Positions 11,954-58,910 of a stretch of DNA of 64,000 nt are shown in pieces. The position numbers and the translations under genes were made by a program. How positions within the stretch are numbered: the stretch's first letter is position 1; every line of letters starts with the position of its first letter. Location: contig CM069876.1 of assembly GCA_036172665.1 (NCBI GenBank), positions 682,001 to 746,000 on the forward strand, read 5' to 3'. The DNA is from Prosopocoilus inquinatus (taxonomy: Eukaryota > Arthropoda > Insecta > Coleoptera > Lucanidae). Under the pieces are notes generated by a model. The model saw only the letters and a program-made list of their open reading frames with translations, did no database searches and was not told the origin of the DNA.

Positions 11954-14210
11954 TTAAATTCTTATAAAAATGTCAGAGTTATAAAGTCCACCGTGTTGCC
12001 TGTAAAAAAGTAACAATTTATAAATATATAAGCAAGGAAGTGGAAGAATATCTAAGTTTCTGAAATAATTTCTACACGACGTTCGTGACGGAAGTTTAAG
12101 CATGCATCGAATTATTTGCTTTTGTAACACGAAAACCATATTTGAATTAGTAGATGACCCCCAAAATAATATACCATGGGATAAATGACAATAAATGTAA
12201 GCATAATAAAAAATTTTTATTACATGAAGACTAACTTCATTTCTCAGTTGAAAAATTGCATAGAACGCTTTTCTCAGTTTAGCACATATGTTTTTAGTTT
12301 GTTGTTCCCATTTCAGCTCAGAATCCATAGATACACCTAGAAATTTTACTGTTTCACTTTCTTTAACTAACTTTTCATTCATTGTAATGTGGAAGGACTC
12401 TTCTTGAGAAATTTTATTGTAAAAACTTATCGCAGTAGTTTTTTGTTCATTTAAATATAAAGAATTTGACTCACACCAATTAATCATGTTTTTGATTACG
12501 TTTGTAGCTACCATGGATAGATTAACGATGGTTGATTCACTAAAAATGCAAGAAGTGTCATCAGCAAATTGATACAATGAATTTATTTTTAAGTTCGCAT
12601 GAAGATCATTAACATATATTAAGAATAAAATAGGGCCCAAGATAGAACCCTGTGGAACTCCTTGTGAAACATCAGCAAAAGAGGAAAGTACATTTTTGCG
12701 TTCTTTATTCACGACTGCATTGATTGAAACTTTTTGTGTTCTGTTAGTCAAGTATGACTTAAAAAGATGTAGGACCTTACCGCGAATGGTGGTGGTGGTA
12801 ACGCGTGGTTGACCGTGTCAAATGCCTTTGACAGATCAAAATAAACGCCGATTACCTTATTATTCTTTTCTAATTCTTCTAATATAAATGTGAGGGATTC
12901 AAATATAGCAAGTTCGCAGGATTTTTTTGGTAAGAAGTCGAATTGGCGCGTGGTTAATATACGGTTTAAACGAAGATAAGATAACAATCTCACATATATG
13001 GCATTTTCAAATATTTTGGAGAATGACGATAGTAATGATATGGGACGGTAATTATTGATGTCAGTTCGACTTCCATTTTTATGGACAGGAATTACTTTGG
13101 CTTCCTTAAGTTTCGTTGGAAAAAAGCCGGATTTAAACATTTCATTGATAATATTGGCCAATGGCTCTGCTATATGTTGGGCACATTTATGGAGAATTTT
13201 AACGGGAATTTGATCCAAACCTGATGATAATTTTGGATGAATATCATTAATTATATTGAATATCTCCAAAACACTACATGGCTTTAGAAACATTGATGAA
13301 GTGACTGAGACCGTAACCGTTGATGCTAAATGATTGTAAGTTGCAGTCGGAAGGTTCTTAGTAAATTTGTTGTTAAATGAGAAAGCTATTGTCTCAGGAT
13401 CATTTATAATATCATTTCCATTTTTAAGTGTAATATCGGTGTCATTTAGCTTAGGTCTGGTTTTTCCATTTAAAATTTGCCATACTGCTTTGGATTTGTT
13501 CTTAGCTGTTTGTATTTTACTGTCATTTAGAAATTTTCTATAATTATTTGTGTATTCAGTTGCCTCAAGTTTTTTACACTTATAGTGTTGTAATATATTC
13601 TCATCGTTGGTGATCTTATAGAGAGAATATAACTCACGAACATCATCCCACATGCTTTGGATATCTTTATTCATTAATTTGTTGCGTTTATTTGGTGCAT
13701 CATTTACTTTTGTTAAAGGAAACGACAAATCGAAATAATAAAAGAAAATATTAAAAAACTGCTCGTATTTTAAGTTTACATCGTGTTCCTTTAGCACTTC
13801 GTCCCAAGATTCTGATTGTATTAAGTTTAAAAAGAATTCTACGTTATTATCGTTATAGAACCTCCTGAAGAAATGTAATTTTTCGCGCAATATTTGTACA
13901 CTAAATTTCAATGTTATCGTGCTGTGATCTGAAAGACCCTCATCCGAGATAAACGTTTGTGTAAAGGTTGCTGGATAATTGCCGAAAACATTATCTATAC
14001 AAGTGCCCCCGGAATTGCAAGGTCGAGTCACTGCATTAACTACATACGACTGTAAATTGTAAGACATCAATAAATTAGTTAACTTAGTTACGCATACTAA
14101 AGAAGGCGATTTCCTATACAGTAACATTTCAATTTCACACACACTTGATAGGGATTGCAAGTTGTTACGAAATTGTTTACAGAATGCCGCTTTTGCAAGG
14201 TCACTTGAAA
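11954..14210 (-). pseudogene. 5'-truncated LINE ORF2 (endonuclease C-term and reverse transcriptase)
   Basis: Reading leftward from about 14210, the frame carries the end of an AP-type endonuclease (CIDNVFGNYP ... EGLSDHSTITLKF), a linker, then the RT fingers (AKVIPVHKNGSRTDINNYRP, ISLLSSFSKIFE) up to GVYFDLSKAFDTVNH. Near 12780 the frame shifts, apparently with a small deletion in a run of CCACCA-type triplets. It resumes in a second frame (12751 down to 11954) with GVPQGSILGP, the catalytic FADD box and the thumb (VKFLGVSMDSELKW), ending at a stop. ORF1 and most of the endonuclease are missing, as expected for 5' truncation. The frameshift makes it inactive. It resembles Jockey/CR1/I-type LINEs; the exact clade was not determined. 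About 340 bp of 3' UTR precede the triplet tail. Confidence 0.92.
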
Positions 14211-14239
14211 CATAGCAATAATTGATATAGAATAGAATA

Positions 14240-14775
14240 GATCCCAAGCAAAAGCTTCTAGAACACGTTCTCTCAGGTCTTCTGTTGTTGCACACAACAA
14301 CCTTCGATAGACCTTATCTTTTCTCGCTCCCCTTAAGTAAAAGTCTAAAACAGACAGACAGATCAGGGGATCAAGGTGACCACGTTATTGGTGCATTTCT
14401 TCCAATCCATGAGTTGGGCAGTTTCATTTAAATAATTTCGTACTGTTAAATGACTATGCGGCGCGGCGGTCCGCCATCAACCATTCTAGCAATCCTCGAG
14501 TTATTTAATTCGTCCAACATATTTTCAAAATCATTCTGTAAGAAATGAAGATAGCGGTCACCAATGAAGTACCGTTAAAAACATAAGGACCGAGAATTGT
14601 TCATTTAATAACACCGCACCAAACATTTAACCAAATTTAATTTGTGGTCTTCTTTGTTCAACCTGATACGGATGTTCTTTTAACCAAAGATGCTCATTGT
14701 GTCTATTAAATATGTCACAATTTATAAGCTTGATTTCATCTGTCCAAAGAACTTAAAATTTGAACTGTGCGTCAC
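14240..14775 (-). pseudogene. Decayed DDE_3 (IS630/Tc1-mariner-type) transposase
   Basis: On the minus strand the sequence can be followed through frame breaks: a WTDEIKL block with NRHNEHLWLKEHPYQVEQRR, then ...TVRNYLNETAQLMDW, and finally GERKDKVYRRLLCATTEDLR. This order (first catalytic Asp region, then the 'SPDLxxLDF..G..K..VY' tail region) is that of DDE_3 transposases common in arthropods. Several stops and frame changes make it dead. The LINE at 11.6-14.2 kb begins immediately after the ATTEDLRERVLEAF tail, so the LINE probably landed inside this transposon. Confidence 0.7.
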
Positions 14776-19544: not shown

Positions 19545-21746
19545 ATGGTGTCCGTTGGCGATCGTGTATCGGCATTAGCCACAATTTTTGATCAGAAAAA
19601 TGATCATACTTGGAGTAAAAGTGAATTTGGGGAAAACTGGAATAGTGCAAGATGTTATGGAACTTGCCAAAAAGTATTTAAAGCGTCTATATGTGCTTCA
19701 GTGAAATGGGATATAGACAGTCACATAATCAAAGTTGCCTGCAGTGTACTGCGAATTGAAAATTCTGCAGCATGTAGTACAGGTAGATTTATTTATATGA
19801 AAAGTACTGTTTTTATATAAATTGTATGAAATTATATGAAATGTATATAATACTACCAAAAAAATTATAAAAAATAATTTTAGGTTCTGATGGTGACGTT
19901 TCACGAAGGAATAAAAACAACGGGAAACTCAAATACAGTCAAGCTCTTTTATCTGCTTCTAGCCCAGTAGCTGGAATTAAACTCTTCCGACAGTGACTTA
20001 TCGACAAGTGAATCAGAAAGTGACACGGAGGACCAAAATATAAATAATTCTCTTATCCAAACGAGGGACGATGATATTAGCAGAGACAGCAAGCACCAAA
20101 ATCAATATACAAATACTGTAACAGTACATGGTAGTTTGTGGGAATTTGGTACCTCTGTCGAAATCAATACTTATAAGGATACCCATTTCAAGCCTGAACT
20201 TCATGTAAGGAATATTCAGTCCATGAAAGAACAAGTTTTGGATGGCATTTTTTCCCTCTGAAGATTTAGATCTCATTTTACAATGCACAAACGCGCATCT
20301 TAGAGAACGCCGAAGACTAATAACCAAAGGCGATTTTTTTAAAGCAATAGGAATCATGTATGCAATGACGATCAATGTTCTTCATAGCCGCCGCGACTAT
20401 TGGTCGACTGAATCGGGTCTCTTCCCAGCTCCAGCGTTCGGCCAAAGATTTAGAATGGGCCTTCATCGCTTTGAAGAGATACTGGGATGCATGGCGTTTG
20501 CAATGCCTGCTAACGAAGAACCGGACGATAAATGGTACCATGTTCGTCAATTTTTTGATATGAGCACGGCAAAGTGGAGAGATATTTTCACTCCAGGATA
20601 CAAACTTACCAAAGACGAATCTATGTTCAATTGGTACGGCAAAGGACTACATAATGAAAAGGATGCCATGCCTGCCGTGATAAAAATAAAGCGCAAACCA
20701 AAAGGCGTTGTGTGCGAATGCAAGACTTTGGCCGACGTTCAATCTGGCATTATGATAGCAATTGAAATTAACGAAGGCAAAACAGCAATGCAACAAAAGG
20801 AATTCCAACAAGAGTTTGGTGCAGGCACTGCAACTACATTACGGATGACACGTCCTTGGCATGGTTCTGGTAGGATAGTCGTGGGTGACTCCTGGTTTGC
20901 ATCCGCAAAAACAGCCATCCAGCTTCATAAGTATTATGTATCATATATTATATGTATTTTCTTGGTATCATCAAAACCGCTACAAAAAATTATCCAATAG
21001 CAGAAGCTAGAAGACGGTGTCCCTCTGAACGAGGTAAATGTGCAATTGGTACAGCAAAAATTGATGATGTGAATCTGACATGCGTTGAATGGAGAGACAA
21101 GAAAGTGCATACCTTTATTGGTTCATGCAGTACTACATTAGAAGGGATACCAGTACAGAAACGTAGAACTGACGAATCAGGTAGAATTATTATAAAAGAA
21201 GTTCCTAGACTTAAAATCGTCGAGGAATATTTTGACGGAGCACCTTCCATTGATGTACACAATCACATACGTCAAAGCGGTCTAGCTCTAAAGGAAATAT
21301 GGAATACTCAAAAGTGGCACCATCGTATGTTTGCGAGTCTACTTGGAATTATTGAAACCAATGCCTACCTGGCATTTAAATATTTCAGAAAAGATGCCAC
21401 TATCAAGCATTCACATTTCACTGAGTCGCTAGCATTGCAGTTAATCCACAATACTTGAGATAATAACAGACAAGTTGCTAATTTAGGTGACGAGGTAGCC
21501 AATCGGCCTCAACAAGTTCATCTTCAGCAAGAGTTACTTAATGGGGACCACGTACTTATTCCTTTGAGTCGAGATGATGAGAGGGTGAGGGTCCAAAGAA
21601 AATGCATTATTTGCAGCCGCATTCACAAAAGACAACAAAAAGCAAGCTATAGGTGCAGTTCTTGTGGAGATCGGTCAGTTATGTGCGCACCAACCACGGG
21701 AAGAAATTGTTTCACGTACCATATTCAGCATGGGATTCCTGCTTAA
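19545..21746 (+). pseudogene. piggyBac-type transposase gene, broken
   Basis: Cut-and-paste transposase of the PGBD/DDE_Tnp_1_7 type. From the ATG at 19545, exon 1 (to 19782) reads VGDRVSALATIFDQKNDHTW ... ASVKWDIDSH, which looks like a small SH3/Tudor-like domain. A GT-AG intron of 101 bp (19783-19883) keeps the frame. An acidic segment (SSDSDLSTSESESDTED) follows at about 19983. The catalytic core keeps all three expected Asp motifs: TKDESMFNW, GRIVVGDSWFAS and GAPSIDVHNHIRQ. A C-terminal cysteine cluster (CIICSRIHKR ... YRCSSCGDRSVMC) at 21600-21700 matches the zinc finger typical of these transposases. Breaks: frame changes near 19990 and 20257, one near 20940 that looks like a short insertion or local duplication, and a TGA at 21456-21458. 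The damage is light, so loss of function is fairly recent. Confidence 0.88.
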
Positions 21747-23070: not shown

Positions 23071-25010
23071 GTCGGAGTAGCATCCCGATTACCTGCTTTA
23101 ATCCGGCGACTAAAAATATACATTTCTGAGTAGCGTCCGGTGTAGATAGTCCTTTTTATCGCTGATTACTGGAATGATGCTATCCTGAAATAATACTTAT
23201 CCCTAAACCGATCGCAGATTGGGCAGAAACCATCCCCTTCTATCCCTTCAAAATAAATCGTTTGCAAAATATTATTAAATGAAGTAAAATTATATCAGTA
23301 TTGTTTTGTCGCCCTTTTCGTGAACCTTGTTTTTCTAAGTGTGTCTGTATCATCAATGCCTTAGAGTTTGTCTTGAGTGAAAAAGGAAAAGAATTGGTAC
23401 TACTGAACGGTTTTACATATCGGTTTCATAAAGATTTAGCGGGTGGAGTGCGTCGTTGGTCATGTTCAACAGCTTCAAGTAGAAGATGCCCCGTTTATTT
23501 GAAAATTTACAGAGAAACAAGAATTTTGTTGGAAACAAATGATAAACACAATCATTGCGCACTGGATGAGAAAATCTTAAACAGGAATCTTTTTAACAAT
23601 TCCGTGAAGAGAAAGGCGACCGAAGACTTGAATGAAAAAAAAACCTTTGAAGATAATTCATAAAGAATTAAGAGCAGGAGATTCGGAGACACTGACCCAG
23701 CATGATATTCGTCGTATAAGGAAGAACATTCATTACAAAAGAAGAAGTGTTCTACCCAAGCTCCCAACAAATCAGAAAGAAATGTATGACGTACTCAGGT
23801 CTTATGTTGCCGAAACAAATCGCCATGAAAATTTTTTACTAGTAAATGATAGTAAAAATCATATAGATATGTTTTCCTGCAAGGCAAATCTAGAATTTTT
23901 ATGTAGCTTGAAAACTATATATGTAGACGGAACTTTTAATTATTTTACAAAATTTTATACTCAATTATTTAAAATTCACGGGTTAAAAAATGATCATTAT
24001 ATTCCGTTAGTATTTTTCTTATTGCCAAGTAAATGTAAGTATGTTTATAAAATTGCATTTGAATACATAAATCAAGAAACACAGAAGCTTGGAGTAACAT
24101 TTGCACCGCATAAAGTGGTAGCAGATTTTGAGGAAGCAATCCACGAAGCTGTGAAAGAAGTTTGGAGTGAAGTTTTATTATCAGGCTGCAGATTTCACTT
24201 GGGCCAGTCATGATAAGTAATTTATTATTTTCAGAAACGTTGGGATTAATATTTAATGATATATATAAAATTTTAGGTGGAGAAAAATACAAAAACTTGG
24301 TCTAACAAGTTTTTACAAAAATAAAGATTCGGAAGAGGGGACATTTTTGCGATATTGCTTCGGTTTACCCTTTCTGGGCCCAGAAAATGTTGGCGACTGT
24401 TTCGCCATTGATTTTGCTGCTGTTCAACCAGATAACCCAAACATAACTCAATTTTGTGATTATTTATATCAGAATCATCTCGATTCCCACCGCATTTATG
24501 GGCTGAAAATTCCAGCAGCTACAAAAGAACAAAGAACGCTTGTGAAAGCTTTCATTCTAATTTCAATTCATTGTTTTACCATGCTCACCCAAATATATTT
24601 CAATTCATTAATGTTCTAATTAATTGTCAATGTATTACATATATAAAAATAAGGAGTGTTCAACAATGCGAGAAAAAAATTTATGCTTCTCAAGTAATAA
24701 AAAATCAAACGTTTTTAAACGAAAACATTTCGAAATTAAAAGCTGGAGAATTTAGTAATTTTGAATTTGTGAAGCTAGTTGGAAATTATTTTAAAATGTA
24801 GAAAAATATTGTATCATGTAGTATTTTAAAGTGAATAAATATAATAATACCTACTGGCAGTTATTTTCTGCATATTTATTTAACCTTTTTTAAATGTAAT
24901 CCTCCCTTAGAATTAACAAGGATAACATGCCGGACGCTACTCAGACATGGGTCCGGACGTTACTCGGATATATCATTTTGAGACGAAAATTTTTGGGACG
25001 CTACTCGGAC
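23071..25010 (+). mobile_element. MULE (Mutator-like) element with FLYWCH-type transposase
   Basis: Left end GTCGGAGTAGCATCCC (23071-23086) and right end GGGACGCTACTCGGAC (24995-25010) are inverted copies with two differences. Inner copies of GAGTAGCGTCCGG also occur near 23130 and, inverted, twice near 24930-24970. The ends bracket the transposase remnant. A 9-bp target duplication expected for MULEs was not evident. Confidence 0.75.
23340..24801 (+). pseudogene. MULE transposase with N-terminal FLYWCH finger, broken
   Basis: The FLYWCH zinc finger (about 23355-23560) reads FVLSEKGKELVLLNGFTYRF ... RRWSCST ... CPVYLKI ... NDKHNHC. A shift in an A-run near 23640 leads into the catalytic region: YVDGTF (first Asp), KVVADFEEAI (second Asp) and GCRFHLGQS, the C-x2-H motif of MULE transposases. 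The sequence then meets a 64-bp intron (24213-24276) whose acceptor TTTTAG is intact but whose donor reads ATAAGT rather than GTAAGT, so translation hits an immediate stop. Downstream, WRKIQKLGLTSFY ... GPENVGDCFAIDF continues, and another shift near 24480 leads to HLWAENSSSYKRTKNACESF, ending at 24801. Not functional. Start codon not determined. Confidence 0.85.
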
Positions 25011-26179: not shown

Positions 26180-27404
26180 ATTTCCAAGAACTATCCATGA
26201 GCTCACAATGGTTTTAGGCCAGCGAGGTCAACAAACACGGCAATCGCCGAATTTGTAAAACAGGTAACTGCATCGGTTGACGCGGGCGAATGTCCTGTTG
26301 GGTTCTTTTGTGATCTCAGCAGGGCCTTTGACTGCGTCGATCACGAGCTTCTCTTGCAAACTATGGAAGGTTACGGTATCCGTGGTGTCGTTATTAGTTG
26401 GTTCGCTTCTTTTCTTCAAGGGAGGACCCAATATGTTGAGCTGCCATATACTTCTGAGAATGTTCGCCATAAATGTTTATCGGATAAACTAGATATTGAA
26501 ATGGGTGTTCTCCAAGGTACAGTATTAGGCCCCGTGTTGTTTCTTCTTTATATAAATAATCTCCCAACTTATTTGAGTAATCACTTTTCCATAATGTACG
26601 CGGACGATACTTCCGTACTTGCTAATGTTAATGAGAGTGACAATGTACTGAGTAAATTGCAGGAATGGTCCGCTGAAAACAGATTGTATTTAAACGCCAC
26701 CAAAACTGGGTATATGCATTTTCATCATAAAATAAATAAAAAAGACATGAATTTAGACGTTTCAATTAATAGCACTAAGCTAACAAGATTTAATTCTGTT
26801 AAATTCCTAGGCGTAACTATTGATCAGAACCTGTCGTGGGAGGTACACTGTAATAATCTCATATCAAAAATAAATTCCCTAGCTTATCAACTCAGAATGT
26901 TAAAATCAGTTTTGAATATTAATGTTATTTTATCATTTTACTATACACAGATCGATAGCAGATTAGCATATGGAATTTGTTTTTGGGGTTCGTCATCGCA
27001 ATTTAAAAATGTCTTTATTTCTCAAAAAAGAGTTATTAGAATGATCGCTGGTGTAGACAATAGAACATCCTGTAGAACTTATTTTGGGCAGTATAAAATA
27101 TTAACATTGTACGGATTATATATCTTCAAGCTCTTGGAGTACATTTTTGTAAATCAAAGTATTTTCACTAGAAATAGTGAATTTCACGTTTATAACACGA
27201 GAAATAGATCAGATTTTAATATTCCAATTCACAAATCCGCCTGTCTGTTTTAACAAAAGCTTAATGGTTTATGGCTTGAAGATGTTTAATTCATTACCTG
27301 AAGATGTAAAACGTATAAAATTTGTCAAACCCTTTAAAAGGCGCATCAAATCAATTCTTACAGATCTGTGTCCGTACAGCTTGGGGGACATTCGTTTCAG
27401 TTAA
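26180..27404 (+). pseudogene. 5'-truncated LINE reverse transcriptase
   Basis: Begins mid-RT with NGFRPARSTNTAIAEFV, then GFFCDLSRAFDCVDHELLLQ, GVLQGTVLGPVLF, the catalytic MYADDTSVLA box (about 26590-26625) and the thumb (VKFLGVTIDQNLSW). A stop at about 27250 comes with a frame change, and the C terminus continues in a second frame (NKSLMVYGLKMFNSLPEDVK) to 27404. The RT core frame itself is open for about 300 codons. The same family is seen on the minus strand at 11.6-14.2 kb: both have GACAATAAA just before an ATT-triplet tail. Truncation removes the endonuclease and ORF1, so it cannot move by itself. Confidence 0.92.
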
Positions 27405-29109: not shown

Positions 29110-29385
29110 TGTAACATCAATTTGGCGACCGATAAAATGAAGACCTGCTTCAATCGACGAGCCAATGAAACAGGCTTCCAACAGGGGGGCCAGCTGTGGC
29201 TGTACAATTCCAGAAGGACTCGTGGACTATGGTCTAAATTACAAGCGCCTTGGGATGAACTCCATAAAATAATTAAAAGGAACAATGCTGTGGTCCACGG
29301 GAGACAAAATCTACCCCGAGGGAAGATGAACGTGAACCACATCGAACGTTTGCTTGGTCCCATACTCCATTGGGGACGAAATTAG
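29110..29385 (+). pseudogene. Ty3/gypsy integrase C-terminal remnant
   Basis: Reads MKTCFNRRANETGFQQGGQL, then WLYNSRRTRGLWSKLQAPWD and a degraded HIERLLGP ending. This is the integrase tail around the conserved 'G-F-x-x-G-D-x-V-W-L' and 'L-x-P-Y' stretch of gypsy elements. It aligns with the corresponding part of the element at 52.4-58.9 kb and shows a Gly codon at the position where that element has TGA. No flanking LTR was seen; an isolated fragment. Confidence 0.8.
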
Positions 29386-30133: not shown

Positions 30134-31228
30134 CAGGATGTTCTTTTACTGTATGCAAATACCGTGCTTTCAAGTGAATTCTTCATTAAAGTGGGCTCTG
30201 ATTTCACTGTTTTTTTCTCCCAAGATTTACAGCACTGCTGTTCAATTATTTAATTAAACAAATGTCAAATTGACACTTTGTATTTTCAATTAATTTAAAA
30301 CGTTAGAATTACAGCAGAAAATATTTATTGTTGAAAGTTATTTTCAAACCGGTAGAATAGAAAATGGACAGTTAGTTTATTCAATTAATCAGTGTGTAGA
30401 GAAGTTTCGACAGCAGTTTCCTAATTTTGCTATTACTTATGAACAGCTAGTTAAACATATCCATGCTTGTGTTCTTAAATTTCGTGAAACAGGATCACTT
30501 GGTCGCAAAACAGGGAGCGGAGCAGCTAAGAAAAGGACTGCCGCCTGCATTGAAGATATTCGGGATCGAATGGAGCACTCTCCCAAGAAATCTATTGCGA
30601 AATTTTCACAAGAAGTTCAGCTATCAGTGGGAACATGTCACACTTTTCTTAAAAACGACTTAAAGCTTTATTCATATAAGATTCAAGCAGTCCACGAACT
30701 CAGGCCAGTAGATTTTCACAGAAGAACAGAATATTGTCAGTGGTTTCTTGATAACTTAAACAACGACGACATTCTTGACAAGTGTTTCTTTTCCGATGAG
30801 GCCTGGTTTCATCTCTCAGGGTATTTAAATAAACAGAATATGAGAATATGGTCAGCAGAAAATCTCCATGAATTTGTGAAAACTCCATTACATCCATTAA
30901 AAGTTGGTGTTTGGCTAGCAGTGTCAAGAAGGCGTATCATCGGACCAATATTTTTTAACGACTCAGTGAATTAAAATTTTAAATAAAATATATATTATTA
31001 TTACGAAACGCCGCGTTGAAAATCGTATCGGTGGACGTGTTCATACCGAGAGGAAGGCGAAGTTGACCTTTATATCATTTTTGCACATTTAAGCAGTGCC
31101 AAATAAGTGATTCTTCCGAAACTTTTGGCTATGATACGGTAGCCACCAAAAAATACGCGCAGAAGGTAGCATTTCGCGTACTTATACTGAGGTTCTTTTT
31201 TATTTGCACACAGTAAAAGAACACCCTG
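30134..31228 (+). mobile_element. DDE_3-type element, copy B, internally deleted
   Basis: Left terminal repeat CAGGATGTTCTTTTACTGTA with TA before it (30132-30133); right end inverted, ...CACAGTAAAAGAACACCCTG. The interior holds the N-terminal two thirds of a transposase (30303-30974), then jumps directly to the right-terminal region shared with copy A. The missing part is the last catalytic segment. The 3' flank beyond the terminal repeat (about 31229-31377) also matches the flank of copy A (about 4557-4705). Confidence 0.85.
30303..30974 (+). pseudogene. DDE_3 transposase, C-terminally truncated
   Basis: A single uninterrupted frame of about 223 codons. First comes a helix-turn-helix region (KIFIVESYFQTG ... 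FAITYEQLVKHIHACVLKFR, then TGSLGRKTGSGAAKKR), then a second DNA-binding segment (EDIRDRMEHSPKKSIAKFSQ), then the catalytic start with FFSDEAWFHLSGYLNKQNMR and VGVWLAVSRRRIIGPIFFND. The first catalytic Asp (in SDEAWF) is present. The later Asp and Asp/Glu are lost where an internal deletion joins this frame to the element's right end, giving a stop at 30972-30974. No clear ATG was found near 30303. Typical of arthropod IS630/Tc1-mariner-type transposases; inactive as it stands. Confidence 0.85.
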
Positions 31229-43420: not shown

Positions 43421-44629
<1,209 letters not shown>

Positions 44630-50000: not shown

Positions 50001-52383
50001 AAGCAAGAATTGGAGCATGATACGATGAAAAATTTAAATAAATTAGATTGCCTGTACACACAATAATCTACGGGTTCTAAATAAGTGATTGAATAACTTC
50101 GTTAACTCTCAATCGAACTATTTTATTAATTGTTTACATTCCAACTCAAAACATGTGTTTTTATAAGGATAATTTTGAACCTGAATTTCTGTGTCGGCTT
50201 AAACCATAAAGCCAAAAAGCTCTCGCCTAGTGCAGAAGTTTATTTCGACGTTTATTCGAAGTTTTAATAAAGAAACAAATGTATTTTTGCTTTACAGATA
50301 CAATAACTTGGAGTAATCAACATTGTAAGTTGATTATTGGTAATTTACAGATTAATATGATGTAAGATTTCCACTGTTTCGATCGCCTTTAGATTGTTTT
50401 TTTTAAATTTAAGAGTTAAAGTACGGATTAGCACAAAACTAATCATCAATTAATGCAACACGCACAGAATATTTTATACTATTAAGAACTTACCTAGTTA
50501 CAAAATTTATATGCTTTTAAAATGAATAAAAAACACGAAACTTGACCTGTCTTAAGTACAATATCTGTGCATTAGGTCATGGTCTGCGTTTTTATGACTT
50601 TGTATGGCCTCGAACGTCGGAGAATAGTTGAAAACCAAGCTCAGCCGGAACATTTATAGCGACCCTCAAACAATTTCTATGAAAAAATAAAATAATTTTT
50701 ATCTGCGTTATTATTGCTATCTGACCAATAGTTGTATAACAAATTTTGCTTCTTTTCTTGACCACTATTTGTGGTTTCATAAAAGACATAGGTTTAGAGA
50801 CACGCTGTATATTCATTTTAAAATACAAGGCACAATAACTAATATACAGGCAATAATGTAATCGTGGCTTGTACATTCATTTTAAAATAAAACATGTGGG
50901 TATAACCAACCAATTGTAAAAGACAATTAATTGCACAGAAGCACACACCATTTCTTGTGCAATAATTACTGCGAATTTCAAACGAGATACATCGAGATTA
51001 ACTCCAGATGCTACACAATCTAGATTACTTCAAAAAATTATTGTACAATGAATTGTATGATCTGTATGTAATACAATTTATAGTTTATTAATTTTTTCCT
51101 ACATAAACAGTTTGATAAGGTAAATTGAGTTTAATACACTTCAAAAGAAATGAGAAAATCATTAGGAAGAGGTCGTCGTTGATAAATTAGATTCATATAC
51201 TTACCTTTGTTTTTATTTACGCAGATATCAAATCTTTATTATCTCAATTTAATTTCGGTTTAAATACAGTCCCAAATAATATTTCAAAATTATTTTATGC
51301 AATTATAGTTTTTACACATATAGTCCCGGTTTCTCAGTCACAGTTTAACTTTAATCTTTAGTTTTCTTACATGGGAACAGACGGAAGTTACTAAGCAACC
51401 GGCCCATAGAATTTCTTGAATTCATTTTTAAAAGCATCAAAAATACACAAATAATTTAATGTTGACAGTCTTTATTAAGTTGTGTGTTGTCTGTTATCTA
51501 CCTCATTTTCATTTATTTTTGAATAGTTTCAACAATTGCTACTCAGATTTACTTTTGTTGTTTTTAAAAGCTTTGTATTTGAGTCACTTAATTTGTTGTT
51601 GTTTAAGCTTTAAATTTACTTTTGCTGTTTTCAAAAGTTGAGTCACTTAATAGTTGTTTTTAATTCCGGCTACTTTTACGTCGTATTTTAAAGTCCAAAA
51701 TTTATATCAAAACTATCCAAAAGACGACTTTTATGGCTATTTAGTACAGTCTACTTTAAATTTCTCATTTTCACTAATATAATATGAAACAATAATTTGA
51801 AACTAATGCAGGGATGCACAAAACAACATCATGTGCATCCCTAATCTAATGCATACAGAGTTCTACTAAAATAAGGTAAACATTTCTATATATACTGTTT
51901 CAATAAAAGCATTTATGAGTACTTACAAATAATGTTGAAGCTAAAACTAACTAGAGGTGTTTGCAAGTTGTTTTTATATGTACTACTGCACATATTTGGT
52001 ATTCTGGATGCAGAAATTATTTTTCTTTAAATGGGGCCCCTCCAATCATTTAAGGTTGGGCAGCTCTGATTTAGATGAAATTTAGATATTCTTTAAATAT
52101 TTAGAAACATCATGTAAAATAAAAATGTGTAATAATTCAATTAATATAAGAACAGATTTTGCAAATTTGAACGAAATATTTTGTAGTTTTCTAAGTTCAT
52201 TAAATGAGACATAATAATCGGAAACTTCCCTGTTTCTTTATTAGAAAAACTATATTATTATCTTATTTTATTGGTTTATTATTGTTAGAATTGTTGTAAT
52301 TTTTGTTACAACAATTTATTTGCATATTCTTGTTAGGTTTTATCCGGATTTCCCTAACTCTTGCAGTTAATACTGAAGTATAT
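47042..52383. other. AT-rich intergenic DNA, no recognised gene
   Basis: 5.3 kb without any supported coding region. ACAGGGTGTCTCAAAAGCTC near 49480 resembles a DNA-transposon terminus without a visible partner. Open frames at 47717-47914 (plus), 48579-48881 and 50592-50876 (minus) and 51459-51641 (plus) match nothing. FoxF enhancers could lie here but no motif-level claim can be made. Confidence 0.45.
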
Positions 52384-52709
52384 TGTTACGTTTCTAGGGT
52401 TTGAGTTTATTTATTTTCACGAATAAAACACTCGATAAAAACTTAACCGTAATTTAATGAAGCTTAAAAACTAATTTATTTGTAACAATTTATTTTCACA
52501 CTAAAATCTAACTTCGACTATCGCTGCTCGAATTCGACTGACTGGTGAGTCAACCCCGGGCCATTTTATATCATTGCTGGCGTCTGGAAGTCTCGATTCT
52601 GGAAGATTCTAGTTTGCTCCATATAGGCCCCGAACGCGTGACGGCCTATGACACATCGAAGCGGACCGACTTCCTGACGCCTTGCGCTAAGTCAGGTTGG
52701 CTCGCCACA
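52384..52709 (-). repeat. 3' LTR
   Basis: 326 bp; on the minus strand it starts TGTGGCGAGCC and ends CGTAACA (TG...CA). It contains TATAAAA (52564-52570) and an AATAAATAAA polyadenylation-type motif (about 52407-52416). It also supplies the last codons and stop of the upstream reading frame. Confidence 0.95.
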
Positions 52710-53588
52710 CTGCCCCCTTCTTAGAAACGTTTCGTCTCGAAATGTTCCTGGTGATAGTCTTGAAGGAGGGTGTCGGAATCTACATGCTGGCCCATTCTTG
52801 CAACTTCCCGCCTGGAAGAAGTAACAGTCCACGGTTTTGCTGTTGCTGACTGTTGCCTGTGGGTGGTGGCTGCAGACTAGGACTTCAATTCCCGTTCTGT
52901 GGAAGATGACTTCCAGCATGCTTCGAATTACTCTCCAGTCTAGTCCGTCCAATCCGCAGCCCAATTTGGGGATGGCTAACTTCATCTGATGGTTCTCTAT
53001 TAGCTGTCTCCTCAGGCTATATAGGGCTCTCCACATAGTCACATAGTCAGGTTTACCGCTTGATGTCTTCTTAGTGACTAAATAATGCACGTGGCGCCTC
53101 CGATCTGCCGTCGAATCAATGATCTGCAAGCTCTTGCCTACCACGGGATGCTGTCTTCGTAGCTCCTCGATTTGGCCAAATTTCTTCTTAAACACCTGAG
53201 CGATTCCTTTGGACATTTTCAGGTCTTCTGCTACGCAGTGGGCCAGACTGTACTCCAGTGGCACTTTAAAGAGATCTTGTTGCTTCTCCGTGGTCACTCC
53301 AAACCGTGCCTTGCTTCCTTCGGCGTGATGAGACATAAAGGTTTCGAAGTTCACTTCGGAAACTTGCGCTCTTTGTACTGTCCCTTCATCTGCTTCTCCA
53401 TGGTAAGGGGCTATCCGGTTGAAGTGGATTACTTTGGGTTTGCCATGGGGGACCTTCTTGATGCGGTAAACGACGTCGTTGATCCGTTTCATCACTTTGT
53501 AAGGACCTTCCCAAGAGGTCTGTAATTTTGGGGAGAGGCCTCGACGTCTTTGGGGGTTATAAAGCCAGACCAGTGCTCCAGGTTGGTA
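52692..53588 (-). CDS. Integrase tail, TARG1/OARD1-like macrodomain and CCCH zinc finger
   Basis: Same frame as pol, separated from it only by the TGA at 53589-53591. After that stop the frame gives the integrase end (LVWLYNPQRRRGLSPKLQ, then KVIHFNRIAPYHGE). Next is a linker and a macrodomain. Numbering from the first Met at 53495, residues about 78-210 read YSLAHCVAEDLKMSKGIAQV, FKKKFG, YLVTKK and PKLGCGLDGLDW. This pattern is that of TARG1 (OARD1), which removes ADP-ribose from acidic residues; its catalytic Lys84 and Asp125 correspond to K142 and D183 here. Residues 224-242 form C-x7-C-x5-C-x3-H, a CCCH finger of the RNA-binding type. The frame ends inside the 3' LTR. A role in reversing ADP-ribosylation or in RNA binding is inference. 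Confidence 0.85.
   Translation of the reverse strand, partial: YQPGALVWLYNPQRRRGLSPKLQTSWEGPYKVMKRINDVVYRIKKVPHGKPKVIHFNRIAPYHGEADEGTVQRAQVSEVNFETFMSHHAEGSKARFGVTTEKQQDLFKVPLEYSLAHCVAEDLKMSKGIAQVFKKKFGQIEELRRQHPVVGKSLQIIDSTADRRRHVHYLVTKKTSSGKPDYVTMWRALYSLRRQLIENHQMKLAIPKLGCGLDGLDWRVIRSMLEVIFHRTGIEVLVCSHHPQATVSNSKTVDCYFFQAGSCKNGPACRFRHPPSRLSPGTFRDETFLRRGQCGEPT
52710..52722 (-). other. Polypurine tract
   Basis: AAGAAGGGGGCAG on the minus strand directly before the 3' LTR: the expected primer for plus-strand DNA synthesis. It lies within the coding frame of the macrodomain ORF, which is still open there. Confidence 0.8.
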
Positions 53589-53591
53589 TCA
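53589..53591 (-). other. In-frame TGA between integrase core and macrodomain
   Basis: The only stop in the pol frame between 57035 and the LTR. Reading ...QHG, stop, YQPG.... Either a nonsense mutation in this copy or a readthrough site limiting production of the extended protein. The base after TGA is T, not the CTA context of the best known leaky stops. Confidence 0.85.
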
Positions 53592-56500
53592 CCCGTGTTG
53601 AGCGTTGATGTCATAGTGCTCCTTCATCCGATCGCTGGCCGTCTGTATATTGTGACGCACTTGGTTGTGGATATCATCCATTTTCCTGCGTAATTTGCTC
53701 ACGTAATCTTCGTCGGCAGAGACTTCGCCAGGCTTCACACCAAACTTCAGGTCGCAGGGCAGTCTCGGCTCTCGCCCGAATACCACTTTCGCGGGAGTCT
53801 CTCCTGTTGTCTCATGAACAGATGAGCGGTATGCCAATAGAAATAGGGGGATGTACGTGTCCCAGTCCCTCTGATGATTGGAAACGACCTTGGACAAATG
53901 TCGGTTGATGGTTCTATTGAACCTTTCCACCATTCCGTCCGACTGTGGGTGGAGTGCAGTTGTTCTAGTTTTTCGTACGCCGAGCAGAGTACACACGTTC
54001 TTGAACAAGGCCGATTCAAAGTTCCTTCCTTGGTCTGAATGCAGTTCCATAGGTGCACCATACCGACTGATCCATTCCCTGACAAGGACTTCCGCAATAG
54101 TGACTGCCTCTTGGTTAGGTAGGGCGTAAGCTTCAACCCACTTGCTAAAGTAGTCCATTACCACGACGATGTACTTGTTTCCACCATTCGTTTCTGGAAA
54201 CGGGCCGGCTACATCGATGGCAACTCTCTCAAAAGGACTTCCAACGTTGTACTGTCTCATGGGAGCCTTACCCCGCCTGTGGGGACCGTTACTGGCTGCG
54301 CAGACTGTACACTTTCTGCACCATTCCTTCACGTCTTCCTTGCAGTTCACCCAGTAAAATCTTTCGCGCACCTTCTCCATAGTCTTCTTAACTCCCAGAT
54401 GCCCTCCCGAAGTTCCATCGTGAAGTTCCCTCAGAACTTCTGGCACCCTATTCTTCGGGATCAGTAACTGTGTCTTCTGTTCCATGCCTTCCTGATTCTC
54501 TATGCTTCGTCTCAGAAGACCACGATCCAACACTATGGAGTCCCACTGCGCCCAGTATGATTTTACGGACGGTGCACATGGTGCTACCTCTTCCCAGGTA
54601 GGCCTCGCGTCCCTGCTTTTCCATTCTAGCACTAATTTCAAATCCGGGTCGTTCTCCTGGTCTCTTCGCAGTTCTTCGCCTTGCCATTTGTCATCAACAA
54701 TGGCTGTCCTCGCAGTCGTGGCTACTTTCTCGTCCAAACGACTACAGTGCTTACAGTCTTCGGCACAGGGTCTTCTCGACAGAGCATCGGCATTTCGATG
54801 GCTAGTTCCTGCCCGATGCTGAATTTCAAAATCGTACTCCTGAAGTCGTTCGATCCATCGTGCAACTTGCCCTTCTGGGTTCTTGAAACGGAGAAGCCAT
54901 TTTAGAGCGGCGTGGTCGGTCCTCAGCAGGAAGCGTCTACCATACAAGTACTTGTAGAAGTGTTCTATCGTTTTTACGACGGCTAGCAATTCCCTTCTTG
55001 TGACGCAATAGTTTCGTTCCGGCTTTGATAGGACTTTACTGAAGTAGCCGATCACCTTCTCTTGCCCCTCTTGTATCTGGGAGAGTACGCCACCAATTCC
55101 AACGTTGCTAGCATCTGTGTCCACGACGAACTTGCCTTCCGGGAGAGGATAACTCAGAATAGGAGCACTAACCAAGTACTGCTTTAGTTGTTCAAAGCCA
55201 ATTTGACACTGTTGGTCCCATTCAAATGGACGACCTTCTTCAGTGAGTTTTGTTAACGGCTTAGCAATGTCTGCAAATCCAGGAACGTAGCGCCGATAGT
55301 AAGTGCACAGGCCAAGGAAACTCCTTATTTGGTGTTTATTTGTGGGAGTTGGCCAGTCTTTCACCACCTGAATCTTCACAGGGTCCACGGCGATTCCGTT
55401 TCCATTAACAATGTGCCCCAGGTAATTCACTTCCTTCTGGAACAGGTGACACTTCTTGAGGCTAAGCTTTAGTCCAGCTCCGCGAAGCCGCTGGAACACT
55501 CCTTCCAGGTTCCTTAGGTGGTCGTCGAACGTCTTTCCCACGACAATTATGTCGTCAAGGTACACCATGCACGTTGTCCAGGACAGACCTTTCAGAACCG
55601 TCTCCATTAACCTCTCGAATGTCGCTGGGGCATTACATAACCCGAATGGCATCACTGTGAACTGCCACAGACCCATACCAATGGAAAACGCCGTCTTTTC
55701 TCGATCTTCGGGCGCCAGCTCCACTTGCCAATATCCACTCTTTAAGTCCAAAGTTGAGAAGATCTTTGAGCCGGCCAGGGTGTCCAGGGTATCATCAATC
55801 CGGGGCAAGGGATAGCTGTCCTTCTTGGTGACATTATTGAGTAACCGGTAGTCTACACAGAACCTGGTGGACCCATCCTTCTTCTTCACAAGCACTACTG
55901 GTGACGCCCACGGGCTGCTTGATGGTTCTATTACATTATCCTTTTCCATCTCGCGAATAATGCGTTCCGCTTCCTCACGCTTCGCCAACGGTAATCGCCT
56001 TGGAGCTTGACGGATAGGTCTTTCTTCTCCAGTCTCTATTTTGTGTTTCACGACATCAGTTCTTCCCTTGGATCCATTTTCTACCTCAAATACATCTTGA
56101 TAGCGGCCGATCAGATTCTTTGCTTTTGTCTTCTGGTCTGGAGTCAATTCCTGGGCTGTTGACATAACCATTTCCCATAATTTCTTTGGGACTTTCGCTT
56201 CTGGCACGTTTGTTTCAAGTTGCCGGGAGATGGAGGACACCATGGTGCAGCTTCCCAAGATTGTTCCTTTCTTGATATTGACAGAGAAACAATTGACGTT
56301 CATCAGGCGGACAGGTACTTCCTTCTTCGCCGTCAACAACATTTTCCCAACGAGGACTCCTCTTCCAATCCTTTGATCATCAGTATTAGGTTCAACCATA
56401 ATGACTTGCCCATCTTGAAAAACACCGTCCAGTTTTGCGTCGACGATAACCTCAGTCCTGCTGGGTAATACAACGTCTTCAGCGAGGACTACTCGAGCGG

Positions 56501-57035
56501 CCACGTCCCCTCGTTGATGTAGAACCAACTCCTCATTATTGACCGCCATCACGCCACGCTTTAAGTCCAATTGGAACCCGTGGGCACACATGACGTCCAT
56601 GCCCAAAATTGCCTCGTCCTCTATATCTGCCACCAGTGCACGGTGTTTTATTGGAGTTGAACCAATGGTGATGATAACCTCTACTTCACCGTGGACAGTT
56701 GCTGATGTTCCAGTTGCAGTTTTCAGTCTCCACTTGGTCGGCTCGGTGCGTCCAGATGACTTAATGACGTCGGGTCTTAGGATGGTCTTCGTCGCACCTG
56801 TATCCAACAACATGGTGTGAGGAATGTCATCAATGGTGACATCCACGAAGACACTGCTGGTTAACTGCCGTAGGAAAATTACTTGGTTGGCTTTCGTCTT
56901 TGGGGGCCTTTGAATACGGGTCGACGTTTGCCCCTCTGCACCGACCCGGCTTAGTTTAACTGTGGCTTCCTTGGATCCTGTCTGGGCTTTGGACATCGCC
57001 TGCGAACATGTCCTTCCTCCTGGCAATTCCAACAA
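53589..57035 (-). CDS. pol: Gypsy Pol: protease, reverse transcriptase, RNase H, integrase
   Basis: Copies element RNA to DNA and inserts it. Numbering from the open frame at 57035 (entered by frameshift from gag, so the first residues are not used): protease with LLDTGATKTIL (DTGA at 79-82); RT from about 330, with STLDLKSGYWQVEL and the catalytic YLDD at 492-495; RNase H about 636-755 with D639, E682, D707 and D750; integrase with an H-H-C-C zinc finger (H872, H879, C909, C912) and catalytic D941, D1001, E1037 (D-x59-D-x35-E). All active-site residues are present. The frame stops at TGA 53589-53591, inside the integrase C-terminal tail; the same frame is open beyond it into the macrodomain. 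The TGA replaces a codon that is Gly in the related fragment at 29.1 kb. Confidence 0.93.
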   Translation of the reverse strand: MLELPGGRTCSQAMSKAQTGSKEATVKLSRVGAEGQTSTRIQRPPKTKANQVIFLRQLTSSVFVDVTIDDIPHTMLLDTGATKTILRPDVIKSSGRTEPTKWRLKTATGTSATVHGEVEVIITIGSTPIKHRALVADIEDEAILGMDVMCAHGFQLDLKRGVMAVNNEELVLHQRGDVAARVVLAEDVVLPSRTEVIVDAKLDGVFQDGQVIMVEPNTDDQRIGRGVLVGKMLLTAKKEVPVRLMNVNCFSVNIKKGTILGSCTMVSSISRQLETNVPEAKVPKKLWEMVMSTAQELTPDQKTKAKNLIGRYQDVFEVENGSKGRTDVVKHKIETGEERPIRQAPRRLPLAKREEAERIIREMEKDNVIEPSSSPWASPVVLVKKKDGSTRFCVDYRLLNNVTKKDSYPLPRIDDTLDTLAGSKIFSTLDLKSGYWQVELAPEDREKTAFSIGMGLWQFTVMPFGLCNAPATFERLMETVLKGLSWTTCMVYLDDIIVVGKTFDDHLRNLEGVFQRLRGAGLKLSLKKCHLFQKEVNYLGHIVNGNGIAVDPVKIQVVKDWPTPTNKHQIRSFLGLCTYYRRYVPGFADIAKPLTKLTEEGRPFEWDQQCQIGFEQLKQYLVSAPILSYPLPEGKFVVDTDASNVGIGGVLSQIQEGQEKVIGYFSKVLSKPERNYCVTRRELLAVVKTIEHFYKYLYGRRFLLRTDHAALKWLLRFKNPEGQVARWIERLQEYDFEIQHRAGTSHRNADALSRRPCAEDCKHCSRLDEKVATTARTAIVDDKWQGEELRRDQENDPDLKLVLEWKSRDARPTWEEVAPCAPSVKSYWAQWDSIVLDRGLLRRSIENQEGMEQKTQLLIPKNRVPEVLRELHDGTSGGHLGVKKTMEKVRERFYWVNCKEDVKEWCRKCTVCAASNGPHRRGKAPMRQYNVGSPFERVAIDVAGPFPETNGGNKYIVVVMDYFSKWVEAYALPNQEAVTIAEVLVREWISRYGAPMELHSDQGRNFESALFKNVCTLLGVRKTRTTALHPQSDGMVERFNRTINRHLSKVVSNHQRDWDTYIPLFLLAYRSSVHETTGETPAKVVFGREPRLPCDLKFGVKPGEVSADEDYVSKLRRKMDDIHNQVRHNIQTASDRMKEHYDINAQHG

Positions 57036-58477
57036 ACCAGCGGCCTCTTCTGTTTGAAGACCTGTTCCACAATGCGGCGAACATCCTCGGCGGTGGCATA
57101 CTCCCTGGCTCGCTCCTTTATAGTAGATCCCACCTTGGCGTTAGCGGATTCTTCCTCTTCTTCCTCTTGGAAGTCCATAGCCGCTCGCACCTTGACATGC
57201 CCTCTTGAGACTCGTCTCGCTGCTTCAAATTCCAAGGCATAAGCTAATGCGTTCTTGGACGTCTTCGGATGGGTCATTCTCAATGCCTGCTGGTTGTCTG
57301 GGTCACGGATTCCATCTATGAAGGTCTGCACCGTCAAACATTTGAGGAATTCAACAGGAGCTGTGGGATATGCCAACTGGGCCAGACGCGCAACGTCTGC
57401 TTCGAATTCCTGAAGACTTTCTCCGGATTTCTGACAGCGATTCCTCAACTGCGCATGGTATACCTCGGTCAGATGGGCCTGTCCGTAACGCATTTCCATC
57501 CTATTCACCAGCTTGTCGAAGTCTTCTTGTTCCTCTGGCGGCATCGTCTGCAGCACATCGATAGCGTCCCCTCTCAAGGCCACAATTAACGAAGTGGCTT
57601 TTTCGCTGGCCGTCCATCTGTTTGCCTTTGCTGCTGCTTCGAACTGTTTGAAGTAATTGGGCCAAGAAGACTTTCCATCGAACGTTGGTGGTTTTACTTT
57701 CAGTTTAGAATTTTCTGCTGGTCCTTCCATAATTCGGGTTTCATTATTTTCTAGTACTTCTACTGGTGGCTGATCCCCGAACACTCGTAACCCCGCCATG
57801 ATTTGTTCCAGATTTTTGATTTTGTTATCCTGCTGGAATATTATTTCTTCCACATTTTCTTGCAGGTTTCTTGTTTCTTCCGATATTTTTACCACTAGTT
57901 TATCTTCGAGTCCTTTCGTCTGTTCTAGAAATTCACCCTTCAAATTTCCGGACTGTTCTAGAAGTTTCTCGTCGAAATTTCTGGATTGCTCTAGAAATTT
58001 CTCGTCTAAGTCTCTAGATTGTTCCAACAATTTATTTTGTAATTTGTCGAAATTTCCAGATTGTTCTAGAAGCTTCTCCTCTAAATTTCTGGATTGTTCT
58101 TAAAGCTTCTGTAAATTTCCAGACTGTTCTTGAAACTTCTCGTCCAAATTTCTGGATTGTTCTCGAAGTTCGTCCTTGAAATTTCCAGATTGTTCTCGAA
58201 GTTCGTCCTTGAAATTTCCAGATTGTTCTAGAAGCTTTTGCTCTAAATTTCTGGATTGTTCTCGAAGTTCATCTTTCAGGATTTTATTAAAATCGGCGGG
58301 ACCACACGAAATTTCGAAAAGGAAGGTCTCTGGATCTTCGCCAGCTGTCAACAAATCGGATCGGAGACGCTGTTGAAGTGCGCCTTTCAAACCACAGGTT
58401 TCTAATTCTCGTTCTTCCAATTCGGTTTTTAATTCGGCCACTTTTAAGTCTTTCAACAACACTTTTCTCGTAGCCAT
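56951..58477 (-). CDS. gag: Gypsy Gag with SAP motif, 11-residue repeats and zinc knuckle
   Basis: Structural protein of the retrotransposon particle. ATG at 58477 in good context (CAATGG). Residues about 7-41 (LKDLKVAELKTELEERELET ... LQQRL) match a SAP motif, a helix-turn-helix that binds DNA or chromatin. Residues about 80-190 are around eleven copies of an 11-residue unit of the type EQSGNFKDELR, predicting a long coiled coil. Next comes a gypsy-type capsid region (FDGKSSWPNYFKQFEAA ... LVNRMEMRYGQ ... FIDGIRDPDNQQALR) and a CCHC knuckle (CWNCQEEGHVRRRC, C-x2-C-x4-H-x4-C). One in-frame TAA at 58100-58102 interrupts the coiled-coil region, with the same frame open on both sides. The frame ends TAA at 56951-56953, overlapping pol by 85 bases in the -1 frame. 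Confidence 0.9.
56954..56960 (-). promoter_or_regulatory. -1 ribosomal frameshift site G_TTA_AAC
   Basis: Heptamer G TTA AAC in gag frame, immediately followed by the gag stop TAA. A -1 slip reads GTT AAA CTA AGC and enters the pol frame exactly. GUUAAAC is a known slippery heptamer in arteriviruses. The stop directly 3' of the site may strengthen pausing. No downstream pseudoknot was modelled. Confidence 0.75.
57880..58275 (-). repeat. 33-bp tandem repeat inside gag
   Basis: About eleven degenerate 33-bp units (plus strand: TTGTTCTCGAAGTTCGTCC TTGAAATTTCCAGA) encoding the 11-residue coiled-coil repeat. One unit is longer by nine bases, giving 14 residues. Neighbouring units are nearly identical, so copy number probably varies between element copies. 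Confidence 0.85.
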
Positions 58478-58561
58478 TGTTTTTTTTTTTTTTCGATACT
58501 GTACTTATTTAATAATCTGATTAAATTTAATTTACTTTAAATTGTTTATTTATTTGCACAA

Positions 58562-58580
58562 ACCCGCACACCGACACCAC
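58562..58580 (-). other. Primer binding site candidate
   Basis: On the minus strand, one base after the 5' LTR, TGGTGTCGGTGTGCGGGT starts with the TGG expected to pair with the CCA end of a tRNA primer. The tRNA could not be identified from sequence alone. Confidence 0.6.
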
Positions 58581-58906
58581 TGTTACGTTTCTAGGGTTTG
58601 AGTTTATTTATTTTCACGAATAAAACACTCGATAAAAACTTAACCGTAATTTAATGAAGCTTAAAAACTAATTTATTTGTAACAATTTATTTTCACACTA
58701 AAATCTAACTTCGACTATCGCTGCTCGAATTCGACTGACTGGTGAGTCAACCCCGGGCCATTTTATATCATTGCTGGCGTCTGGAAGTCTCGATTCTGGA
58801 AGATTCTAGTTTGCTCCATATAGGCCCCGAACGCGTGACGGCCTATGACACATCGAAGCGGACCGACTTCCTGACGCCTTGCGCTAAGTCAGGTTGGCTC
58901 GCCACA
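58581..58906 (-). repeat. 5' LTR
   Basis: 326 bp, identical by eye to the 3' LTR, ending in the TATAAAA (58761-58767) to AATAAA layout of a compact LTR promoter. Followed by ATAT, the target duplication. Confidence 0.95.
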
Positions 58907-58910
58907 ATAT

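Follow-up and report, generated by a model that had tools for sequence, protein, structure and literature searches.

A TARG1-type macrodomain and a CCCH finger behind the integrase of a Ty3/gypsy retrotransposon in Prosopocoilus inquinatus

The stretch analyzed here, 64,000 nucleotides of contig CM069876.1 of the beetle Prosopocoilus inquinatus (hereafter, the window), contains on its minus strand a long terminal repeat (LTR) retrotransposon that spans 52384-58906 and carries, behind the integrase core and in the pol frame, a macrodomain of the TARG1/OARD1 type and a CCCH zinc finger. The Ty3/gypsy order of protease, reverse transcriptase (RT), RNase H and integrase is present (Asp_protease_2, E = 3.2e-10; RVT_1, 9.4e-38; RT_RNaseH, 1.3e-33; Integrase_H2C2, 3.1e-20; rve, 2.5e-12; all Pfam), and gag has an N-terminal SAP domain (PF02037, E = 3.7e-07) and a CCHC knuckle (zf-CCHC, E = 8.1e-06). 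The two LTRs are 100% identical and ATAT is found on both flanks, so that the insertion is probably recent. Both frames are interrupted, gag by an in-frame stop at 58100-58102 and pol by a TGA (53589-53591) that falls in frame between the core and the C-terminal domain of integrase; thus, unlike related proteins, the window copy does not encode the fusion intact.

A preliminary description, prepared from the letters alone, had placed the macrodomain and the finger in the integrase frame at 52692..53495. The pol frame is indeed the one used; its continuity is broken by the TGA, which that description passes over, as it does the stop in gag, and the open segment that follows extends over 52692-53588, 298 codons, of which approximately the first 62 make up the integrase C-terminal domain. 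A linker of about 30 residues separates this domain from the macrodomain, and the added part begins near 53300. All the blocks quoted in that description, SLAHCVAEDLKMSKGIAQ, FKKKFG, YLVTKK, GCGLD and C-x7-C-x5-C-x3-H, were recovered from the minus strand where it had put them, and the catalytic Lys and Asp are both present, albeit numbered one too high (141 and 182 from the first Met, M33, not K142 and D183). The finger it had called exceeds the Pfam zf-CCCH cut-off (PF00642, E = 5.2e-06, 26.7 bits vs. 20.5) and matches the family pattern C-x7/8-C-x5-C-x3-H.

When the segment was compared with PDB sequences using phmmer, the best match was human TARG1 (C6orf130), across residues 98-238 (E = 6.4e-29); the top five sequences were all TARG1 (up to E = 1e-28), and the next macrodomain was 5m3i, DarG (E = 5.7e-06). 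In the AlphaFold2 model, every ten-residue block of the macro part has a predicted local distance difference test (pLDDT) value of at least 91, and the finger is modelled poorly. TARG1 was top-ranked for this model in both Foldseek and VIA-align, with DarG the next structural family. Asp125 of TARG1 has a catalytic role, and sequence, fold and both catalytic residues agree on the proposed kinship with TARG1/OARD1, which places the domain inside the macrodomains. A chance profile match is excluded by the phmmer E value and the structure comparison. The glycine that corresponds to Gly123, located in the ADP-ribose-binding loop of TARG1 according to a published report (PMC5928194), is present in the window element as well as in 45 of the 48 element rows that have a letter there.

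Table 1 Features of the retrotransposon, with positions in the window.
Feature	Positions	Strand	Basis or remark
Continuation of the pol frame past the stop: integrase C-terminal domain, linker, TARG1 macrodomain, CCCH finger, tail	52692..53588	-	ORF (open reading frame), 298 aa (amino acids)
Integrase C-terminal domain, PF22938	53406..53507	-	residues 28-61, E 1.4e-11
TARG1/OARD1-type macrodomain, residues 97-242	52863..53300	-	
K173 codon, counterpart of TARG1 catalytic Lys84	53070..53072	-	phmmer alignment
D214 codon, counterpart of TARG1 Asp125	52947..52949	-	phmmer alignment
CCCH zinc finger C-x7-C-x5-C-x3-H (C255, C263, C269, H273)	52770..52826	-	PF00642
Pol open frame, in a different frame from gag and overlapping it	53589..57140	-	Pfam matches; ends at TGA 53589-53591
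Gag part 1, first Met (58477) to stop; SAP domain, start of 11-residue repeats	58100..58477	-	ORF
Gag part 2, same frame past the stop; repeats, then CCHC knuckle	56951..58099	-	ORF
3' LTR	52384..52709	-	326 bp, TGT start, ACA end; 326/326 bases identical to 58581-58906
5' LTR	58581..58906	-	326 bp, exact repeat of 52384-52709
Target-site duplication ATAT, 3' side of element	52380..52383	.	matches 58907-58910
Target-site duplication ATAT, 5' side of element	58907..58910	.	matches 52380-52383
Candidate primer-binding site, directly after the 5' LTR	58563..58580	-	position and sequence; TGG one base in
Candidate polypurine tract, within the coding frame	52710..52722	-	AAGAAGGGGGCAG immediately before the 3' LTR

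The arrangement is not confined to this copy. A protein search returned 110 proteins, 59 of them with the macrodomain at an E limit of 0.01; among the 346 proteins of three pooled searches, the macrodomain is present in 201, in 76 of which it follows an integrase C-terminal domain; 19 of these 76 exceed 1100 aa. The same order in 76 proteins excludes a one-off chimera, one of the three outcomes that the preliminary description had named as refuting its proposal; a second, a place outside the macrodomains, is excluded by the comparisons above. Among the best 120 of 2578 matches in the search for pol relatives, 26 proteins carry the macrodomain (15 with a finger match as well), and the proteins with and without it differ in the length that follows the integrase C-terminal domain: 84 of the 94 lacking the macrodomain stop 0-18 residues past that domain (the remaining 10 are longer or give no integrase C-terminal match), whereas 23 of the 26 bearing it have 186-278 residues there (104, 119 and 575 in the others).

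The integrase C-terminal domain and the macrodomain occur in one protein in Aromia moschata, Molorchus minor, Exocentrus adspersus, Callosobruchus maculatus, Gonioctena quinquepunctata and Leptinotarsa decemlineata. In Pyrocoelia pectoralis, the macrodomain protein includes a short stretch of the integrase C-terminal domain; those of Aquatica leii, Brassicogethes aeneus and the leafhopper Macrosteles quadrilineatus have none of it and fall within the element clade of the tree described below. The named carriers other than the leafhopper are beetles. Some entries among the pol relatives bear bacterial or fungal names (Klebsiella, Erysiphe) and were taken as contaminated assemblies. Scans of viral contigs with the window segment, alignment A2 and P0112 yielded no confirmed locus, and a scan of genome contigs with alignment A2 yielded none either. 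A gene model of L. decemlineata named ADP-ribose glycohydrolase OARD1-like (P0046) includes integrase C-terminal sequence; it has the look of an element fragment, not of a host gene, and at least one beetle gene model of that name would thus be a transposon piece.

To place the gain of the domain, pol was analyzed with the macrodomain left out, in a quick tree of 61 rows with approximate likelihood-ratio (SH-aLRT) support only: the window, 18 of the 26 macrodomain-bearing relatives (the cores of the other eight being too short) and 42 of the 94 relatives without the domain, picked by hand. All 19 macrodomain-bearing rows fall within one side of 22 rows (SH-aLRT 100). As for the other three rows of this clade, P0241 retains a finger remnant and the shared tail and so seems to have lost the macrodomain; P0246 is nested among macrodomain-bearing rows, and placing it outside them was rejected (approximately unbiased test, p-AU = 0.0003); P0255 may belong either inside or outside the gain, an earlier split not being rejected (p-AU = 0.491). 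A single gain with a few losses fits the pol tree best.

In a tree of the macrodomain itself (90 rows, picked by hand from those fetched), 51 element macrodomains form one clade (support 100/99), apart from 36 host, bacterial and metagenomic rows, the sampled TARG1/OARD1 hosts included, and from three aphid-type rows. Thirteen element rows lack the finger, and 12 of these group together (91/91), Macrosteles among them, with P0233 elsewhere; the rows around this group bear the finger, which was therefore probably lost within it. Topology tests, in which P0229 (gappy) and P0244 (long branch) were omitted and P0175 was relabelled from host to aphid-type element, did not reject a topology tying the element rows to insect-host rows (p-AU = 0.264). 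Among the best 120 of 290 matches in one of the three pooled searches, none stood out as the TARG1 of a named beetle host.

The aphid-type rows differ in arrangement. In P0112 and P0175 (aphid Metopolophium dirhodum), which point to another gypsy-like element, the TARG1 macrodomain runs into the beginning of an integrase H2C2 domain (PF17921, E = 0.0084 and 0.00023, respectively, both below the cut-off; LISEFHDTPLGGHQGV in P0112), that is, the domain sits before the integrase, whereas in the main lineage it sits behind. P0096 groups with these two by similarity, its sequence ending before the H2C2 point, and the three make up a clade of their own (100/100). A single clade of the aphid-type and main-lineage domains was not rejected (p-AU = 0.232); accordingly, a second, independent capture of TARG1 is suggested by the position in pol only, and a common origin followed by transfer may also account for these domains.

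As a control at the protein level, mean identities were calculated for 151 pairs of relatives with an integrase-core identity of 0.70-0.75, from a table of 24 rows (P0229, P0232 and P0259, incomplete or broken, were dropped). They amount to 0.77 for RT, 0.71 for the integrase C-terminal domain, 0.52 for the macrodomain, 0.31 for the tail and 0.25 for the linker. Thus, the macrodomain appears to evolve faster than the integrase and yet to be more constrained than the linker that adjoins it, which favours constraint. Of the element rows that have a letter at the respective position, 46 of 50 show the catalytic Lys and 45 of 49 the Asp; both are kept in all 37 comparison rows, a group that included the aphid-type P0175.

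Integrase is the part of Pol that meets the complementary DNA (cDNA), the nucleus and the target site, so that these are the stages at which an attached hydrolase would be active. On the sequence comparisons above, the balance tips towards an ancestor of one Ty3/gypsy lineage having gained a cellular TARG1-type hydrolase together with a CCCH finger on the C-terminus of its integrase, a fusion that would erase host ADP-ribose. The macrodomain would be made as part of Pol and packed together with integrase; around the time of reverse transcription and integration, it would remove ADP-ribose placed by host PARP-type enzymes on proteins of the particle or of chromatin, or on the RNA or cDNA of the element, the finger probably holding it on nucleic acid. 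TARG1 is reported to strip ADP-ribose from Glu and Asp of proteins and from RNA ends (PMC6582358), as well as from thymidine in single-stranded DNA, where the K84A mutant fails (PMC8501950). In Drosophila without PARP-1, eight mobile elements are reported as significantly changed (five up, three down; three of the eight from the gypsy superfamily), and ten further rises, nine of them in the gypsy superfamily, missed the false-discovery limit; the authors allow that the effect may be indirect (PMC7712786).

Several observations weigh against this reading. As reported, the Drosophila results support it thinly, the directions being mixed and few of the significant elements belonging to the gypsy superfamily. 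The window copy can make the fusion only by reading past a stop. The Pfam Macro profile (PF01661) gives the window segment 17.9 bits, below its 22-bit cut-off (23.5 bits for P0236 and 15.5 for P0228 among the relatives), although a score limit of this kind does not define the fold. Conservation of the macrodomain falls short of that of RT and integrase, and three of the 22 rows of the pol clade lack the domain. Of the 57 relatives whose tail reaches 30 residues or more, 38 show the exact C-x7-C-x5-C-x3-H and 19 lack it. Finally, a subclade of four rows (P0008, P0021, P0250 and P0251; 100/92) is entirely without the Asp and, in three of the four, without the Lys, and P0244 has Arg in place of Lys, so that hydrolysis is not essential in all members.

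Erasure of ADP-ribose is nevertheless ranked most likely on these comparisons, and reading of ADP-ribose is its main rival. Integrase chromodomains steer chromoviruses to marked chromatin, and the macrodomain could by analogy bind ADP-ribose and steer integrase to poly(ADP-ribosyl)ated or damaged chromatin, an option that we regard as unlikely and nonetheless worth keeping in view. The location directly behind the integrase C-terminal domain is consistent with it, as is the retention of the macrodomain in a subclade that has lost the catalytic Asp, whose four members are possible ADP-ribose readers; the near-general conservation of Lys and Asp, residues not obviously required for binding alone, argues in the other direction. 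The existence of this subclade suggests that eraser and reader roles may both occur. By binding ADP-ribose, TARG1 itself is reportedly drawn to damaged DNA, and it is also reported to bind RNA and poly(ADP-ribose) (PMC5928194).

With somewhat less probability still, the domain would act as a protector of nucleic acid, in analogy to a DarG-like activity of TARG1, cleaning the single-stranded cDNA or the RNA ends of the element within the particle, with proteins not among its targets. Telomeric DNA is reported to be modified by PARP1 and cleared by TARG1 (PMC11102865), DarG is the next structural family, and the CCCH finger adjoins the macrodomain; on the other hand, this reading presupposes that insects modify retroelement cDNA or RNA, and the substrates are indistinguishable from sequence. 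It is improbable that a captured host domain is carried along without a role and is decaying: the losses in P0241 and P0246 (the domain possibly never having been in P0255), the missing catalytic residues in one subclade and the stops of the window copy would fit such decay, but the frame stays open after the integrase in the 19 pol proteins of more than 1100 aa, even though the sampled integrase cores differ by up to approximately 40%, and the identity of the macrodomain is about twice that of the adjoining linker. An artefact, in which a retrotransposon merely adjoins a TARG1 gene of the host or a join in the assembly, has next to no probability: a single element copy in the window bears the macrodomain, but identical LTRs and a target duplication enclose it, which excludes an adjoining host gene, and the same order recurs in the 76 proteins, six named beetle species included.

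Combining the main lineage with the aphid-type elements, it is conceivable, although we hold this only tentatively, that TARG1 was captured at least twice by insect LTR retrotransposons, once behind and once before the integrase, and serves as an eraser against a host defence by ADP-ribosylation, PARP-based or of nucleic acid, that targets retrotransposon particles, cDNA or integration sites. If so, there would be an undescribed ADP-ribosylation arm of insect transposon control. Genomic parasites reveal host defences through what they carry against them, and a lineage that keeps an ADP-ribose eraser fused to its integrase would lead to the testable prediction that ADP-ribosylation restricts insect LTR retrotransposons. 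A natural integrase-hydrolase fusion would also help to tell where PARP signalling acts, be it on particles, on cDNA or at integration sites.

With Ty3/gypsy elements (Metaviridae), the window element shares the LTRs, the target duplication, gag and pol in different frames, the order from protease to integrase and the integrase C-terminal domain; its relatives in public records are named transposon 412- or K02A2.6-like. Compared with TARG1/OARD1, the terminal ADP-ribose protein glycohydrolase, the domain is encoded by a retrotransposon and joined to integrase, with a CCCH finger behind. Chromoviruses likewise have an extra cellular domain fused behind integrase, but the chromodomain reads histone methylation, whereas here the fold is that of an ADP-ribosylhydrolase. 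As in RNA viruses (alphavirus nsP3) and in phages with TARG1-like proteins, the macrodomain is encoded by a parasite. Among viral structures in BFVD, the model was matched best by A0A8E0KJF2, a putative VP8 from Kadipiro virus with 32% identity, a hint that a double-stranded RNA virus of insects may have a TARG1-like domain.

Ray-finned fish have epsilon-like endogenous retroviruses reported to carry macro-domain or CNPase ORFs (PMC4977317, citing Basta et al. 2009) and thus offer another LTR retroelement with a cellular macro domain; there, the ORFs are additional ones, and the account in that paper, as far as it concerns them, mentions no fusion to integrase and does not state the macro class. 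Among the open-licence papers in PubMed Central listed as matches, as covered by titles and abstract openings (subscription journals and preprints fall outside this scope), no description of a TARG1 domain in an LTR retrotransposon was found. The earlier remark that no described element with this layout was known stands, within that scope, for TARG1 joined to integrase; macro domains in LTR retroelements as such have the fish precedent. What seems new here is the TARG1 domain joined to integrase; retroelements with captured cellular domains were already known.

At its downstream end, the pol frame terminates 18 nt inside the 3' LTR, which leaves no room for env after pol, and no ORF of env length follows on the minus strand; the window element therefore lacks the env after pol that marks an errantivirus or insect endogenous retrovirus. 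RRGQC-like residues at the position of the candidate polypurine tract are also found in 24 of the 57 relatives whose tail is 30 aa or longer. Rfam and tRNA scans of the window gave no match, hence there was no tRNA gene in the window with which to compare the candidate primer-binding site. Behind the SAP domain of gag, 57909-58276 holds a run of 11-residue units of the EQSRNLEEKLL type (33 bp at the DNA level).

Elsewhere in the window, decayed fragments of other gypsy-type elements lie at 1-1177 and 29176-29352 (44-50% and 44% identical, respectively, to the pol of the element); no macrodomain match was found after the integrase fragment in these two pieces. Further mobile-element remains, at 11954-14313, 20227-21458, 23632-24213, 26201-27253 and 30294-30974, include two seemingly non-LTR reverse transcriptases, a transposase of the piggyBac type (DDE_Tnp_1_7) in two overlapping frames, a MULE transposase domain and, judged by eye, a mariner/Tc1-like ORF. 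Approximately 8 kb from the element, at 43646-44629 on the minus strand, there is a forkhead-domain gene, FoxF-like by eye.
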